From Mariniblastus sp. (GTDB taxonomy: Bacteria; Planctomycetota; Planctomycetia; Pirellulales; Pirellulaceae): a DNA stretch of 44,653 bases. The DNA lies in contig JABACA010000024.1 in assembly GCA_014237975.1 (NCBI GenBank), forward strand, positions 1 to 44,653, in the 5' to 3' direction. Made by a program: the position numbers and the translations under genes. The notes under the pieces are model-generated. The model did no database searches. It saw only the letters and a program-made list of their open reading frames with translations, and was not told the DNA's origin. Below are positions 10,894 through 17,917 of the stretch, piece by piece. Numbering within the stretch: position 1 is the stretch's first letter; the number at the start of each line of letters is the position of its first letter.

Positions 10894-12282
10894 TTAACCG
10901 ACAACCTTACTAAGCAGCTCAACCAGCAGGATATCGTATTGGGGGTGGATCGTCCTGAGATCCAGAACCAGGCGATCGTTATGAATCCGACCGATGACGG
11001 CGGGCTCGCCATTCCTTAATTGATTCGCCAATGCATCAACCGACATCGATTCGGTTTCCATCGATACACACCAACTGTCGATCTGCTGGGTGGGAACGCT
11101 ACCTCCCCCCAGCATCGACTGACAAGGTTCCGAAATCGCCGATTTAAAGCCGGACAAATGCTCAATCTGTTCCGCAATCCTGCCTGCCCTTAGTTTCAAA
11201 TTTTCGCTGGGTATCGAGAGCATTCGAAGCAGGGGTATCTGGTTGCCGTCCAAATCCTGGTTGCGATAACAGAGCAAAGTCGCATTGAGGGCCGCCAATG
11301 TCATTTTACCAACCCGCATGGCTCGCATCAGAGGATTGCGGAGGATTCGTTGCACATGTTTCTTTTTACCAACGATAATTCCGCATTGGGGACCCCCGAC
11401 GAGTTTGTCTCCACTAAACAGAACCACATCGGCACCCTGTTTAACACTCTGGGAGACCACCGGTTCGTCACTTAATCCAAATCTGGAAAAATCAACCAAG
11501 GCTCCAGACCCCACATCGTCAATCACGGGGATATTGTGTTGGCTACCTATATGAACCATCTCTTCCAAAGAAACGGACCGAGTAAACCCGACGACTTCAA
11601 AATTACTTGGGTGCACCTTAAGCAAGGCACCCGTGTTTTCACCAATCGCATTTTCAAAATCGGCAGGGTGCGTCTTGTTGGTAGTGCCCACTTCTCGTAA
11701 TTCACATCCACTGCATTTCATCACATCTGGCAACCGATAACTTCCGCCGATCTCGATCATCTGGCCCCTCGATACGACGACCTCTTTGCCGGACGCAAGA
11801 GCGGCTAATGCCAGCATCGTCGCGGCGGCATTATTGTTGACAACGGCAGCTGCCTCGGCCCCCGTCAACTCGCAAAGGATCGATTCGACCGCGCGAATTC
11901 TTTGGCCACGGCTGCCCGAGGCCAAATCAAGCTCAACACTCGCATAACCGCTCGCAATATCACTGACCGCATTGATCGCGTCCGAACATAACGGTGCCCT
12001 GCCCAATCCGGTATGCAACAAGATACCGGTGCCATTGATGACGGGACGGAGCGCGGGTTGTTCCGACTTTTCCAGCCAATCGGCAACGCGGGTTGCTATT
12101 TCACTTGCAGTCGGAATGGCTATGTCTTCGGCCGCGTTGGATACCTGTGTCCGCAAGTCGTCGAGGAATGTTCGCACTCCGTCGGCGACGACGTTATGGT
12201 TGACCGTCTTGACCATTTTTTTTAACGGTTCAATTTCGAGCAATTGATTGACAGACGGTAAATTTCTGAAGGGATTGGGCAT
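10894..12282 (-). CDS. selA: L-seryl-tRNA(Sec) selenium transferase SelA
   Basis: SelA is a PLP enzyme that converts seryl-tRNA(Sec) to selenocysteinyl-tRNA(Sec) using selenophosphate. At 462 residues it has normal family length. The N-terminal domain opens with FRNLPSVNQLLE, and VINGTGILLHTGLGRAPL (81-98) is a hallmark of the family. The PLP lysine is Lys293 in FSGDKLVGGPQ, the same region as Lys295 of the E. coli enzyme. Its presence implies the organism decodes UGA as selenocysteine. selB, selC and selD are not in this window. It follows the HU-like gene on the same strand, about 200 bases downstream. The candidate selenoprotein gene lies 3 kb away at 15431, and the SBP56 gene ends at 16460. 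Confidence 0.95.
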   Translation of the reverse strand: MPNPFRNLPSVNQLLEIEPLKKMVKTVNHNVVADGVRTFLDDLRTQVSNAAEDIAIPTASEIATRVADWLEKSEQPALRPVINGTGILLHTGLGRAPLCSDAINAVSDIASGYASVELDLASGSRGQRIRAVESILCELTGAEAAAVVNNNAAATMLALAALASGKEVVVSRGQMIEIGGSYRLPDVMKCSGCELREVGTTNKTHPADFENAIGENTGALLKVHPSNFEVVGFTRSVSLEEMVHIGSQHNIPVIDDVGSGALVDFSRFGLSDEPVVSQSVKQGADVVLFSGDKLVGGPQCGIIVGKKKHVQRILRNPLMRAMRVGKMTLAALNATLLCYRNQDLDGNQIPLLRMLSIPSENLKLRAGRIAEQIEHLSGFKSAISEPCQSMLGGGSVPTQQIDSWCVSMETESMSVDALANQLRNGEPAVIGRIHNDRLVLDLRTIHPQYDILLVELLSKVVG

Positions 12283-12877: not shown

Positions 12878-13374
12878 GGCTATTGCTCCTAGAAACGGGT
12901 GTAAATGCCGATTGAACCGGCTTGCCAAGAAGTGGCTTAAGTGTATAAGCCACAACGACTAAAGTCAACAAACAAGTCGACCAGCACGAATTCTCATTTG
13001 CCCGGGTTAACGGCGGTTTCTACGTGCAATTAGCAATTTGGTTCTTAGTTTCTGCCGAAATTCGTTCCCTATCTAAAACGTTCTGCTTGCGGCCGTCCTA
13101 TTGCGACCACCCAATGCAACGGGAAATTTCCGGTTGCCTTCCCCAAATCAAAGTAAGCAACCATCCGTTCGCATTCAATTTGTGGCAACCAAGGAACACG
13201 CGATGCACAAACGCATCAATCCAATAACAAAGCTCGTTTATTTTTTTAAATGGCAGGTAATACGAGTTTTAGCGCCATAGAGTTTTGTAACGACCTTGAG
13301 GCTTGATCGAGCCACTCGGTTGTTCCTTTTCAAAACAGCGAATACGAATCTCTTTTTTTAACACTCGCGCCACC
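12878..13374. other. 497-bp divergent intergenic region
   Basis: The region lies between the HU-like gene (reverse) and the RTX protein gene (forward). Apart from the HU promoter candidate I see no gene. The 67-codon open frame at 13024-13227 has no homology-like features or ribosome-binding site. The half nearest the RTX gene is A/T-rich with runs of T at 13238-13244 and 13352-13358. No tRNA(Sec) could be found here or elsewhere in the window's intergenic spaces. Confidence 0.55.
12942..12968 (-). promoter_or_regulatory. Candidate promoter of the HU-like gene
   Basis: Read on the reverse strand, TTGACT (12968-12963) is followed after 15 bases by TATACA (12947-12942), about 65 bases before the start codon. 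The hexamers are close to sigma-70 consensus, but the spacer is two bases short of the optimum. Confidence 0.45.
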
Positions 13375-15231
13375 ATGTCTTATACTCGTCGAAAAAAGAA
13401 ACGCCTGCTGGACTACAACCTCCTCGAGAAAAGGCAATTACTTGCCGTATCGGTCTCCCTCGACGCCGAAGGCGAACTCTCCATACAAGGTGACGGAAGT
13501 GCAAACATAGTTACCGTTTCCCAACCATCCACCGGCCAAATGATCGAGGTGGATGTCGATGGTTATGACCCATATCAGTTTGACAGTAATTTGGTCAGCC
13601 GTCTTTATTTTCATGGCGGCAATGGTGACGACATTTTCGACAACCAAACCGATTTACCCGCTGATGCGCGGGGCCACGATGGCAATGACATGCTATCAAG
13701 TGGATTGGGTGACGATCTCCTGATCGGTGGTCCGGGTGCGGATATACTCTCCGTAAAGGGCGGCGCAAACCAGTTGATGGGCGGTGACGGGGACGACCAG
13801 ATCAACGGCGGATCGGGATACGATTACGTGCTTGGCGGTTACGGCGACGATACGATACATGGTGGCAAGGGAGACGATCTTTTGCGGGGTGGCTGGGGCA
13901 ACGACACGATTTACGGAGATCTGGGGGATGATGTAATCCACGGATACACGGGTGCCGATGTCATTTATGGTTTGGCCGGTAATGACAAGCTCTATGGCCA
14001 GGCAGATTCCGATTTGGTTTACGGTGGAACAGGTGATGACATTGTCCGTGGTGGTAAAGGTGACGATGAATTACATGGAGACGACGGTAACGACTTCATA
14101 CTGGGTGACAAGGGAAATGACGAAATGCATGGAGGTCTAGACATCGATGTGATGTATGGTTCCGACGGCGACGACTACATGCGTGGCGGCGACGGAGACG
14201 ACCTGCTGTATGGACAAGATGGAAACGATGACATAGGCGGCGGTGACGGAAACGACCTGTTGCGTGGCGGCAATGATGACGACTTCCTTCAGGGCATGGA
14301 CGGTAACGATCGGCTCGATGCCGACGCGGGAAACGACATTGGTTTCGGTGGAGCCGGCGATGATACTCTCTTGGGAGACGAGGGGGATGACCAGCTGGAT
14401 GGACAGAGTGGCGCTGATTTAGTTTATGGCAATGCCGGTGATGACCTTTTGCGTGGTGGTGCCAATGACGACATTCTTTGGGGAGGCAATGGATCCGACA
14501 GTTTGTTTGGCGGCAACAGCGATGACTTCGACCGTCTATGGGGAGAGGGGGACGACGACCGTTTTCTGGTTCAAGGATTCGACCAGGTCAGGGATGAAAC
14601 TTCCGTCGACGCCGTACTGGTATTCCAGGACGTTTCCAGCCAATGGTCGAACAAGGAAATTGAGGTACTGGACCAGGGGTTTGCCCAGCTTCACCAGCGG
14701 ACACAAAACACCAGGCTGTTGAAAGACACCCTGCCAACAGGACGTTTGACGTTTTACAAAGAATCGATGTCCCAAATGGGAAATGCGCTGGCCGTCAATT
14801 CCCTTCAGTGGACTTCCAATCCATGGTCGACCACCTACGCCCGGCAAATAAAGATCCGGGAGTGGAGCGAAAATTCCGAGTCAAACAACGACCTGATGCA
14901 ATCGACTGTGATTCACGAAATTGCTCACAACTGGGACAGCGAATTGGAACTGACAACCATTAATGGATCGTGGAGCGGGCGTTGGAACAATTTCCTGGGG
15001 CTCAGTGGCTGGACCACAAATCCGATTTTCACACAGAACTACGTGCCGTCGCTCAACGGACAGTGGTGGTATCTATCTAACGCTTCGTTTGCCGCATCCT
15101 ATGGACAAACGACACCCAATGAAGACATGGCAACCGTCTGGCAGTACGTTTTTTCCGGTCAATCGACCAATGATCCCGGACTGCAATCCAAGTTAGACCA
15201 CGTCAATGCCTTGTTTGACGATTTGATCTAG
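13375..15231 (+). CDS. Secreted RTX-repeat protein with C-terminal HExxH metallopeptidase-like domain
   Basis: This 618-residue protein is in three parts. The N-terminus (MSYTRRKKKRLLDYNLLEKR, then QLLAV) is the basic, LExRxLLA-type leader seen on large secreted planctomycete proteins. Residues about 80-395 are an unbroken run of glycine/aspartate nonapeptides of the GGxGxDxxx type, which in RTX proteins coil into a calcium-binding beta-roll. The C-terminal part (about 400-618) contains HEIAHNWD at residues 514-521, a zinc-peptidase HExxH motif; further zinc ligands are not obvious. The ATG at 13375 begins the leader; the frame's earlier start at 13303 adds non-signal residues. The repeats precede the putative protease, the reverse of serralysin order, where the protease comes first. 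The catalytic role is inferred from the motif alone. Confidence 0.85.
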   Translation: MSYTRRKKKRLLDYNLLEKRQLLAVSVSLDAEGELSIQGDGSANIVTVSQPSTGQMIEVDVDGYDPYQFDSNLVSRLYFHGGNGDDIFDNQTDLPADARGHDGNDMLSSGLGDDLLIGGPGADILSVKGGANQLMGGDGDDQINGGSGYDYVLGGYGDDTIHGGKGDDLLRGGWGNDTIYGDLGDDVIHGYTGADVIYGLAGNDKLYGQADSDLVYGGTGDDIVRGGKGDDELHGDDGNDFILGDKGNDEMHGGLDIDVMYGSDGDDYMRGGDGDDLLYGQDGNDDIGGGDGNDLLRGGNDDDFLQGMDGNDRLDADAGNDIGFGGAGDDTLLGDEGDDQLDGQSGADLVYGNAGDDLLRGGANDDILWGGNGSDSLFGGNSDDFDRLWGEGDDDRFLVQGFDQVRDETSVDAVLVFQDVSSQWSNKEIEVLDQGFAQLHQRTQNTRLLKDTLPTGRLTFYKESMSQMGNALAVNSLQWTSNPWSTTYARQIKIREWSENSESNNDLMQSTVIHEIAHNWDSELELTTINGSWSGRWNNFLGLSGWTTNPIFTQNYVPSLNGQWWYLSNASFAASYGQTTPNEDMATVWQYVFSGQSTNDPGLQSKLDHVNALFDDLI

Positions 15232-15430
15232 TTATGCCAAACAATACCGGCATCGCATCTCAAACCGAAAATCCCACGACGCCCCCGTCGAACTTGCCAC
15301 CTGGCCCGGTAATTTTTCCCAAGATACGTTTTTTCCCAGATTTCAAGTAGAATCATGGATCGATCGCCGTAAAAACAAATGGGGCAACCCGATCAGTGAA
15401 AACAACGACACGGCTTCCATTGAGGATTCC

Positions 15431-16435
15431 ATGAAGAAACGTATAACCAGCCTGTTGATGGCCGTTGCCTTGACCGCCATCCCGTTACTGGCATCTGCAC
15501 AAAGCGGCAACGGGCTTCCGGCTGGAATCGTATGGTACGGTGTCCTGCAGGACGGCTTGGAACAAGCTCGTAAAACTGAACGTCCCATTCTGCTGTTATC
15601 GGCCGCACCCCAGTGCGCCGGAGTACCCGGGATGTGGTGACCCGGCAAGCAAAACATGGACAGAAGTTTTCTGTCCAACGACGCATTGGTTAACGCCTCC
15701 AGAAATTTTATCTGTATCCGAACGGCGACTTACGAAGACGCTGAAGAAGCGGAATTCCTGCGAAAGATCTTTTCGGGCAGGGGGGGTGAACTAGAAAATA
15801 CCGTCTTCGCGCTACTTACACCCGATGCACAATCAACCCTCAGTCGCACCGGCCGAAGCCCCCAATTTGCCTTCCGTTCGGCCCAGTCGATGGCCACGGC
15901 CATGGACAATCTGGCACTTAAATACCCTGGCAAACCTGCAACACCTGTCACGACTTTGCCAGTAATGAAAGACGTGCGACTGGCAGTCAACGTCTCCGCT
16001 TGCGATGGCCTGCCGTTAGTCGTCGTATACGGAAAAGATGAAGAACAACTCAAAGAGTTGGAACAAGAGATACTTCCGCTGGCTTTTTCCCAAAATCTGT
16101 CCGGGAAGTTTACCTACGTAAAAACCACTAACCCCAACGACATTGAAACCATCATCGGTTTCGACAAAGACGAGTACGGATTTGCGGTAATCATTCCGAG
16201 CCAATACGGCATCAGTGGAAAGGTGCAATACCAGTGGCCAGCCGAGGTGGAGCCTGCCCAACTGGGGCGCGGCCTGTTGGCCCTTGCCAACGCAACGTCC
16301 AAGGTTGAAAAAAACCACAACCAACACGTCCGAGCCGGTATGAACCAGGGCATTTCGTGGAAAACCGCCATCCCGGTCGAAGACAAAATGTCGTTACGGG
16401 CGATGCAAGATCGCCAGCAACGCAATCGACGTTAA
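15431..16435 (+). CDS. Predicted selenoprotein, secreted thioredoxin-like, UGA-encoded Sec at codon 70
   Basis: The frame runs from the ATG at 15431 (GAGGA five bases upstream) to the stop at 16435, interrupted only by a TGA at 15638-15640. Read as selenocysteine it gives 334 residues: a signal peptide (cleavage near ASA-Q24) and a thioredoxin-like start (RPILLLSAAP strand). Cys62 and Sec70 follow in C-A-G-V-P-G-M-W-U-P-G, then a helix, then the strand ENTVFALLTPDA. The residues after the TGA continue the same domain. A perfect hairpin suited to SECIS function begins 17 bases after the TGA. selA is nearby. The role is probably a periplasmic thiol/selenol redox protein. I do not recognise a named family. 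The alternative is a nonsense-mutated pseudogene, or Sec-independent translation from the Met at 15656; the hairpin and intact downstream frame argue against both. The stop lies 24 bases from that of the convergent SBP56 gene. Confidence 0.8.
15638..15677 (+). promoter_or_regulatory. UGA codon plus bacterial SECIS-like hairpin
   Basis: The TGA (15638-15640) is followed by a perfect 9-bp stem, TGGACAGAA at 15657-15665 with TTCTGTCCA at 15669-15677. It closes a three-base GTT loop at 15666-15668. Bacterial SECIS elements are small hairpins within the coding sequence just after the UGA, with a G (often GU) at the start of the apical loop, and SelB binds them. The 25 bases between the UGA and the loop fall in the usual range. 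The stem lacks the bulged U of E. coli fdhF, which is the one departure. Confidence 0.75.
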
Positions 16436-16459: not shown

Positions 16460-17917
16460 TTAAACCCAAATGTCCGAGGTGCAATCCCCTCCCGGAAACC
16501 GGATCTCATGCGCCCGTGCGGCACCACCCGGCTCCCGACCAAAATCGATCATGAAATCTTCGTTCAGCTTGAGTCCGCCGGTTTCGGTGTTGCAATCCAA
16601 TTGCAGCAGGTAGGACCCCTCTTTGGCCATCCCCGGATAAAACTGATTGTCCCATGGGCTATACAAAGAGTTCGTAACGTACAAGCGTTTACCGTCTAAA
16701 CTGAGTTGTAACATTTGCGGTCCGCCGCCGAGCTTCTGTCCCTTGGCGGTGGCCGTCTTCCCAATCACACCACCCAACCAGACCTGCCCGGTCAGTTTCG
16801 GATGGGCCGGATCGCTGACGTCGTATTGACGTAAGTCACCGTGCAACCAATTGGAAAAATAGAGGAAACGATCGTCCAGCGACAGGACCAGGTCGGTTAT
16901 CAGACCCGGCACCGGGAAGGGCCATCCCTCCTGTTCGACTGGCTCCACCGCAATCACATTGTCGGCCGTCCATTCGCCTCCCTGCTTGTGCCAATGCCAA
17001 ATCGTACTGCTCAAGGCAGCCCCAACGAAACCGTGGGTGCTGTCCGGGTTATGGTGAAACCTGACTTCCAGGGGAATCAAACCATTTTCACCCAGGTCAA
17101 TCGACTGCTCGATTTTCCGGTCCTGCCAGTTCCAGAAATGCAAATGCCGCCCATATTTGCCCGCTGCGACGTCTGCCGGTTTGAATCCCTGCGAAACGGT
17201 ATTGGGAGCTCCCCACTCACTGGAGATCATCACGTTATGGCGAGGCTGATACCAAAAATCGTAATTGAAATTCATTCCGGTCAAATCGTTTTCCCAGCGA
17301 CCTTTGATGTTGAAGTCCGAATCCATCAACATGAAGCCACCCGGCGCATTGCCCTCGGCATCACCCAACATCGAAACCATCACGTGACCATCGGCCAGGC
17401 AGTGGACCGTATGGGGAGCAGACAAACCGGTCTTTGCTTTGACCACTTCCGGCTCGATCACCTTGTGCATTTTTGGTTGACGCGGATCTTCTGTATCGAC
17501 GATATGAATGCGACCGGAAGTGATACCAGGCAACACAATGAAACGGCGGCCGGCGCCATCTTGACCATGGCAACTACTGCAGGCGTTCCAGCCAAAATGA
17601 TGCAGCTCGTCCCCCACGTTGGGCATCTCCAGCCGACTGATTACCGTTCCATAACCCGCCGACTTCGGATCGACATCGACGGTAGCCAGGTAATCCGGCT
17701 TGTTGACCGGTGTACCAGTGTAAATAGCCGGTACGTACGCCACGGTTTCGGGCGGTGCCTTCATGGCATCCTCTACGGTGGCATACATTCGATCACAACA
17801 AGTCGCGGACGAGTCATCATCCAATCCAGATGCCGAAAAAACCTGGTTGGGGATTTGCCCGACGGTTGCCAATGCGCCCGTCGCGACGGTTGTTTTCAGA
17901 AAATCACGGCGTTTCAT
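16460..17917 (-). CDS. SBP56-family selenium-binding protein / methanethiol oxidase, Tat-exported
   Basis: This 485-residue protein of the SBP56 (SELENBP1/MtoX) family includes human selenium-binding protein 1 and bacterial copper-dependent methanethiol oxidase among its relatives. The latter converts methanethiol to formaldehyde, sulfide and peroxide. The signature [16 protein letters not shown] is present, with Cys113 and Cys116 in the CSSC that binds selenium in the human protein. The repeated HxH-bearing blades ([28 protein letters not shown]) fit a metal-binding seven-bladed propeller. It begins with a twin-arginine leader, [17 protein letters not shown], so it is exported folded to the periplasm. 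The start at 17917 has AAGGAG upstream, and three copies of an 8-base repeat lie just beyond. It converges on the candidate selenoprotein gene. A methanethiol or selenium role is known for the family but unproven here. Confidence 0.92.

Follow-up and report, generated by a model that had tools for sequence, protein, structure and literature searches.

Introduction

The described systems closest to the locus reported here are two groups of thioredoxin-like bacterial proteins, namely the VPGUxxT thioredoxin-like (seleno)proteins (NF041382 and NF041383, the latter being OS_HP5) and the Trx7/PDZ family (NF041199), for which the portion at hand of a 2026 review gives the motif CxxU (PMC13188914). 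The inventory in the same portion of that review holds 119 prokaryotic selenoprotein families, none of which is of a C-x7-U type and several of which carry no stated motif, and it makes no mention of planctomycetes (PMC13188914). Nine new families were added by deep-Sep, none of the C-x7-U kind in the portion of that paper at hand, using a procedure that asks for either a known selenocysteine (Sec) homologue or, in the best-scoring matches, two or more Cys forms (PMC12013277). The Global Ocean Sampling (GOS) survey, as far as the portion at hand goes, recorded 51 known and 7 new families and counted 3,506 Sec against 58,225 Cys sequences (PMC2398784). Its families GOS_A and GOS_B are given there without a motif (PMC2398784). 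They were set against the present family only through an NCBIfam scan, in which NF041374, the GOS_B model, found no match. Among planctomycetes, the selenoproteins named in the portion at hand of another study are formate and formylmethanofuran dehydrogenases (PMC4807772).

Here we describe a gene of Mariniblastus sp. that, judged from comparison of sequences, very probably reads the UGA at its codon 70 as Sec. It lies in a stretch of 44,653 nucleotides that is called the window below. The gene belongs to a family of probably exported, thioredoxin-like selenoproteins of planctomycetes and some other bacteria that is apparently unlisted so far.

Results

Gene and Reading Frame

An earlier reading of the window, made from the letters alone (the sequence-only reading), had pointed to a single TGA in an otherwise open frame at 15431–16435. 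This frame indeed encodes 334 residues followed by TAA, with the TGA at codon 70, and a mechanical gene caller splits it into products of 69 and 259 amino acids, as had been foreseen. The features of the gene, its product and the selA gene of the window are as follows.

15431..16435, + strand: predicted selenoprotein gene of 334 codons and a TAA stop, whose codon 70, TGA, is probably read as Sec
15422..15426, + strand: GAGGA, Shine-Dalgarno-like, 4 nt 5' of the ATG, assigned by eye
15431..15502, + strand: signal-peptide-like N-terminus, approximately codons 1–24, assigned by eye, from the low-confidence start of the model and by a crude rule
15518..15925, + strand: predicted N-terminal thioredoxin-like domain, approximately residues 30–165, with Sec70 (model, Foldseek and Pfam matches)
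15614..15616, + strand: Cys62, which probably resolves Sec70; present in 128 of 129 readable Sec genes and in all 7 Cys genes
15638..15640, + strand: UGA codon 70, predicted selenocysteine (TGA in 130 genes and a Cys codon in 7, n = 137)
15657..15677, + strand: SECIS-like hairpin of 9 bp with a GUU loop (folding, synonymous control, codon choice and covariation)
15713..15715, + strand: Cys95, in the strand after the active-site helices, conserved in 129 of the 130 genes with Sec and in all 7 with Cys
15974..16300, + strand: predicted second thioredoxin-like domain, approximately residues 182–290 (secondary structure of the model, PDI-type tandem matches)
10894..12282, − strand: selA, selenocysteine synthase (TIGR00474 at 576 bits, cut-off 268; PF03841)

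A signal-peptide-like N-terminus was found by the crude rule in 42 of the 53 Met-starting rows of alignment A1, which holds 54 of the 57 loci from relatives described below (L046, L061 and L065 were excluded).

State of Codon 70 in Homologues

The residue at codon 70 in homologues had been fixed beforehand as a test of the Sec assignment. The source genome carries three paralogues of the gene (45, 44 and 31% identity), each interrupted by one internal TGA that falls on the codon equivalent to codon 70 in all three. Matches were obtained in 42 of 197 relatives, with the source genome counted among the 197, giving 57 loci; the codon was TGA at 55 of them and TGT at one (L047), and the site was uncovered at the last (L065), so that TGA occupies 55 of the 56 readable sites. 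Contig databases yielded 133 confirmed loci, from which the best 80 were chosen by likeness to the Sec query; these comprised 74 TGA, 3 TGC and 3 TGT, and distant Cys forms may lie among the other 53 owing to this ranking. The record titles of the best 80 of the 133 name Planctomycetota, Verrucomicrobiota, Melainabacteria, Obscuribacter, a cyanobacterium, one "Proteobacteria" MAG and unclassified bacteria. When 392 genomes were drawn evenly from the phylum, 106 matched the family profile at E 0.001, many of them by short and weak matches. At E 1e-60 there were 59 rows, 57 of which had an internal TGA, and the other two enter the profile only at positions 80 and 84, past the site. Codon 70 was read in 29 further loci of this sample and was TGA in every one.

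The 136 entries collected before this addition were reduced to 113 non-identical genes by a 261-nt key, and the 165 entries obtained with the 29 loci gave 137 genes. This readable set, which includes the best 80 of the 133 contig loci, originates mostly from Planctomycetota, with some Verrucomicrobiota and Melainabacteria/cyanobacterial MAGs. Codon 70 was TGA in 130 of its genes and encoded Cys in 7, and no other residue was found. The in-frame UGA across species and the Cys in some homologues, by which bacterial selenoproteins are recognized, are hence both present, and the insertion of Sec at codon 70 is strongly supported by this comparison.

Machinery for Sec Insertion

The sequence-only reading had placed selA in the same genome, where it is located within the window (10894–12282, − strand). 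The same reading had exposed itself to an absence of selB, selC and selD, and these functions were all found: selB on contig C343, extending to the contig edge (271 bits, cut-off 242); selD on contig C356 (266.5 bits, cut-off 125); and tRNA-Sec on contig C64 (70.2 bits), with the anticodon TCA according to ARAGORN. The genome thus holds selA, selB, selD and tRNA-Sec, as is expected of a bacterium making selenoproteins. The selD locus (L074, G000:C356:18200-19105) lies in an open frame of 733 codons, approximately twice the length of the selD model, and is perhaps a fusion.

Taking a best E below 1e-10, a threshold of our own, as a strong tRNA-Sec, we found one in 39 of the 41 relatives that carry the TGA gene versus 66 of 156 without it, and inside the family in 39 of 41 versus 38 of 79. 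Fisher's p was 2e-10 for all relatives and 7e-8 inside the family, values that overstate the association because kinship was ignored. The two TGA-gene relatives without a strong tRNA-Sec are G022 (83% complete) and G032 (91% complete); some of the genomes in this class are incomplete. None of the seven Cys-form genomes (G100 and six others) has a strong tRNA-Sec, while 16 further Sec genomes comprised 12 with a strong one, 1 with an intermediate one (54.4 bits) and 3 with neither. The last four are the verrucomicrobial genomes G211, G212, G213 and G218, which carry a TGA gene (L150, L151, L152 and L100) together with an intermediate (G211) or weak tRNA-Sec match; these genomes may be incomplete or their tRNA-Sec divergent.

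SECIS-Like Hairpin

The hairpin described in the sequence-only reading was recovered as a 9-bp stem pairing 15657–15665 with 15669–15677 around a GTT loop, and it begins at the 17th base after the TGA. The spacing from the UGA to the loop G is 25 nt, which presumably fits the bacterial SECIS model. Taken alone, the window hairpin is only moderately unusual (z −1.67), and 9 of 200 dinucleotide shuffles fold as well. Across the family the hairpin lies far outside chance expectation. In a synonymous control, the codons of nt 13–45 (the TGA being nt 1–3) were re-drawn from each gene's own codon usage. The hairpin region was more stable than its recoded versions with a mean z of −2.37 over 106 Sec genes; it reached p 0.05 singly in 62 of them and was not significant in the remaining 44. 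Six control windows further downstream gave mean z values between −0.08 and −0.24, and 3 to 12 genes reached p 0.05 in them (100 shuffles were used for them versus 300 for the hairpin, and one control window lacked L040). The seven Cys genes showed a mean z of −0.76 in the same test, with 1 of 7 at p 0.05.

Codon choice and base pairing point in the same direction. A G opens the loop in 103 of the 106 genes. Where subfamily I has Arg in the stem, 56 of 59 genes encode it by AGG, against 132 of 1702 elsewhere in those genes, and the Ser codon in the loop is AGT in 68 of 68, against 201 of 1439 elsewhere; both codons are rare in the remainder of the genes. Covariation was evaluated on alignment A2, consisting of 80 of the 83 subfamily-I Sec genes (76 distinct rows), and 90.1% of the cells were paired, with two-sided changes at 7 of 9 pairs. 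None of 500 shuffles reached any of the five measures used, and sliding the partner strand gave 31–54% pairing. The covariation result is favored by the omission from A2 of L040, L041 and L122, in which the hairpin does not stay in register; the codon-choice counts include these three. They have an alternative stem nearer the TGA, a possible shifted SECIS. In subfamily II (23 genes, in which FU replaces WU), the four upper pairs form in all 23 genes and the fifth in 19, and a lower stem, shifted by one, forms in 11 to 18 of the 23. Rfam detected no SECIS in the window at the gathering score, nor in the hairpin itself (E 1). A hairpin just 3' of the UGA is hence conserved as RNA between species, the point on which the sequence-only reading had hung its SECIS: it outperforms the synonymous control and covaries, yet 44 of the 106 genes are singly non-significant and an Rfam match is lacking.

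History of Sec and Cys Forms

A quick maximum-likelihood tree was built from the 137 proteins with the Sec/Cys site masked, using SH-aLRT supports and a midpoint root for drawing only. The seven Cys genes grouped together in a single clade (SH-aLRT 100), and nodes supported at 91 and 96 place this clade within the Sec genes. The simplest reading of this nesting is that Sec came first and changed to Cys once later, so that, as far as the sequences tell, Sec looks like the original state of the family and Cys a later replacement. The single Cys clade represents a natural Sec-to-Cys experiment. The ratio of Sec to Cys forms, 130:7 in a gene set that includes the best 80 of 133 contig loci, is the reverse of the balance in the GOS survey.

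Conserved Residues and Predicted Fold

The family shares the signature C-x7-U-P-G...C-x-R, in which U-P-G-[KYFM] follows C-x7. The Cys-x7-Sec spacing had already been flagged as unusual in the sequence-only reading, and it holds in all seven Cys genes and in 128 of the 129 Sec genes that could be read. The exception is L050 (G054), the sole Sec gene whose Cys stands nine residues before Sec, not eight (C-x8-U). P71, G72 and C95 are each conserved in 129 of 130 Sec genes, and R97 and E102 in 130 of 130; the seven Cys genes retain C62, P71, G72, C95, R97 and E102. A CxxU, UxxC or CxxC pair, as in classical thioredoxin-type selenoproteins, was not found.

An AlphaFold model made with 54 sequences had a mean pLDDT of 92.4 and a pTM of 0.88. 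It places a strand at 53–58, a helix at 71–81 directly after Sec70 and a strand at 94–99, after which helices and strands alternate once more over 182–288. The model thus shows two thioredoxin-like folds, with Sec70 predicted to lie just before the first helix of the first. Of the thioredoxin-like domain proposed earlier around the TGA, the N-terminal fold is upheld by both the model and Foldseek; a second such domain is predicted to follow it. The Foldseek matches supporting a thioredoxin fold include protein disulfide isomerase (PDI), ERp44, 3ira, DsbH, DsbD gamma, AGR2 and others, with TM-scores of 0.2–0.3 for the whole chain and approximately 0.5–0.67 for a single domain (by target). A sequence search of solved structures with the window protein gave no match; a profile search gave AGR3 at E 0.46, and its matches to two designed PPR proteins over positions 17–53 were taken as artefacts. 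Sec at position 70, the hairpin, Cys62 with Cys95 and the modelled fold are each supported by comparison. Overall, the sequence-only reading was right about the site, the frame and the hairpin, and it missed the three paralogues, the second thioredoxin-like domain, Cys95 and the Sec-first history.

Gene Neighborhood

Neighboring genes gave no lead to a substrate, the most recurrent cluster being found at 16 of 81 sources. An SBP56 gene (selenium-binding/methanethiol oxidase type) with a TAT signal lies convergently at 16460–17917 (− strand), with 24 bp between it and the selenoprotein gene, and an RTX protein with 13 stretches of calcium-binding repeats is encoded just upstream (13303–15231, + strand). 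SBP56 was near 1 of 165 other family loci (L013, the closest orthologue), RTX repeats near 5 of 165 and SelA near 0 of 165; these counts are a weak test because the flanks span 1–6 kb and certain loci overlap one another. We rejected an operon shared with selA or with SBP56 on the respective counts of 0 and 1 in 165 other loci within such flanks.

Discussion

It is highly likely that the gene encodes an exported selenoprotein with tandem thioredoxin-like folds. SelA, SelB, SelD and tRNA-Sec(UCA) would put selenocysteine at UGA codon 70, and the hairpin beginning 17 bases downstream would direct this insertion. Sec70, lying before the helix that follows the first strand, would occupy roughly the place of the attacking Cys of thioredoxins and serve as the redox nucleophile toward a disulfide or peroxide. 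Cys62, eight residues before it, would most likely act as the resolving residue by forming a selenenyl-sulfide, which an exported donor would then reduce, and Cys95 may be a further partner of Sec70. We infer an enzymatic role as an exported selenium-dependent thiol/disulfide or peroxide oxidoreductase, a proposal that embraces export, the chemistry, the 62–70 pairing, the donor and the substrate.

The least improbable alternative accepts that Sec is inserted and assigns Sec70, Cys62 and Cys95 to the binding of a metal or metalloid instead of thiol redox chemistry. The family does combine three conserved Cys/Sec positions with the lack of any CxxC or UxxC pair, and metal roles of selenoproteins are discussed in the portion at hand of the 2026 review (PMC13188914). 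The modelled thioredoxin fold with Sec at the start of a helix and the PDI-, DsbD- and DsbH-like matches argue against such a role, which we consider unlikely.

We judge it a little less probable still that the protein is a divergent member of a named family, VPGUxxT or Trx7/PDZ. A weak likeness is apparent: E-value matches among 54 members numbered 27 for NF041199, 8 for NF041382 and 1 for NF041383 (best E of these 0.0013), and by eye these families share with ours a VPG shortly before Sec (VPG being taken from the model name) and an FVCxR strand. The window protein, however, scores 12.7 bits with NF041383 against a cut-off of 275, and the best E-value of the 54 members to any model of NCBIfam release 20 was 0.0011, so that no member comes near a cut-off and no NCBIfam model reaches its cut-off for the family. 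VPGUxxT proteins are likewise thioredoxin-like selenoproteins with VPG shortly before Sec, whereas Sec of the window protein stands two residues further on (VPGMWU, of the form VPGxWU) and is followed by PG, if the VPGU position is taken from the family name. Trx7/PDZ proteins resemble ours in a Thioredoxin_7-type N-terminal domain and the FVCxR strand, with the weak matches in 27 of 54 members; our family has no PDZ match, its Sec is at another place and a second thioredoxin-like domain follows. The best E-value to NF041199 over the 54 members was 0.0021, with the window member unlisted. Furthermore, the same genome has a separate true Trx7/PDZ member (L186, G000:C387:13703-14896; 391.7 bits, cut-off 300). 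Its two in-frame TGA codons would read U-I-P-U, unlike the CxxU listed for that family, so that one further selenoprotein candidate, or more, exists in this genome, and L186 may contain Sec twice. By eye, A59 and C62 align with the two UGA positions of this UIPU. Cys62 may thus descend from the second Cys of a former CxxC, and Sec70 may sit on an inserted loop.

Very slight is the probability that the UGA is read as another amino acid (e.g., Trp) or under a reassigned code. The open frame across the UGA does leave the residue unnamed, but tRNA-Sec and the sel genes are present, the exchange is with Cys alone and the Cys genomes have no strong tRNA-Sec. A reassigned code was rejected, as TGA is a frequent ordinary stop both in the window, where it ends 14 of the 27 listed ORFs, and in the family, where it terminates 35 of the 130 Sec genes. 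The chance that the TGA is a genuine stop, in a decayed or misread gene or between two separate proteins, is slighter still: the mechanical reading does give two ORFs, the latter of which has an ATG 18 bases past the TGA, but the same TGA recurs in 130 of 137 non-identical genes from several phyla with Cys in the other 7 and no other codon, which rejects a pseudogene, conservation is continuous on both sides, and the hairpin is under synonymous constraint.

The predicted protein was also compared with thioredoxin-fold systems at large. DsbH, DsbD gamma, DUF255-type proteins, AGR2/AGR3 and Thioredoxin_7 (PF13899) have a fold like that of the N-terminal domain, with a CxxC-type site that is replaced here by C-x7-U-PG. 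Thioredoxin_7 gave the window protein 18.2 against a gathering score of 27; it matched 37 of 54 members at E <= 0.01, and of 10 others scanned singly, 7 matched and 2 passed the gathering score. The a-b tandems of PDI, which were the top Foldseek matches, are alike in having two consecutive thioredoxin-like folds; they differ in their CxxC, absent here, and the whole-chain TM-scores of only 0.2–0.3 indicate another arrangement of the domains.

The family was not found in print among the open-licence papers searched, and it may already be listed in the S9 table of PMC4807772. It may have escaped notice because searches for Cys/Sec pairs depend on homologues with Cys, of which this family shows few. 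On balance we lean, by no great measure, toward a new Sec-dominant family in which Sec is ancestral, Cys is a single later replacement, and a new Cys-x7-Sec redox pair is carried on a tandem thioredoxin fold. If so, planctomycetes and their relatives would export a major redox enzyme that depends on selenium and has up to four copies per genome. The bacterial selenoproteins would gain a family with many members, from phyla whose selenoproteins are little described in the open-licence papers, and a class of split gene calls would be accounted for. The C-x7-U pair would offer a redox motif that is new and open to test, within a well-known fold. Set against the described systems, bacterial selenoproteins with a thioredoxin fold are already known, and what is new here is the motif, the predicted tandem fold and the Sec-dominant, apparently Sec-first history.
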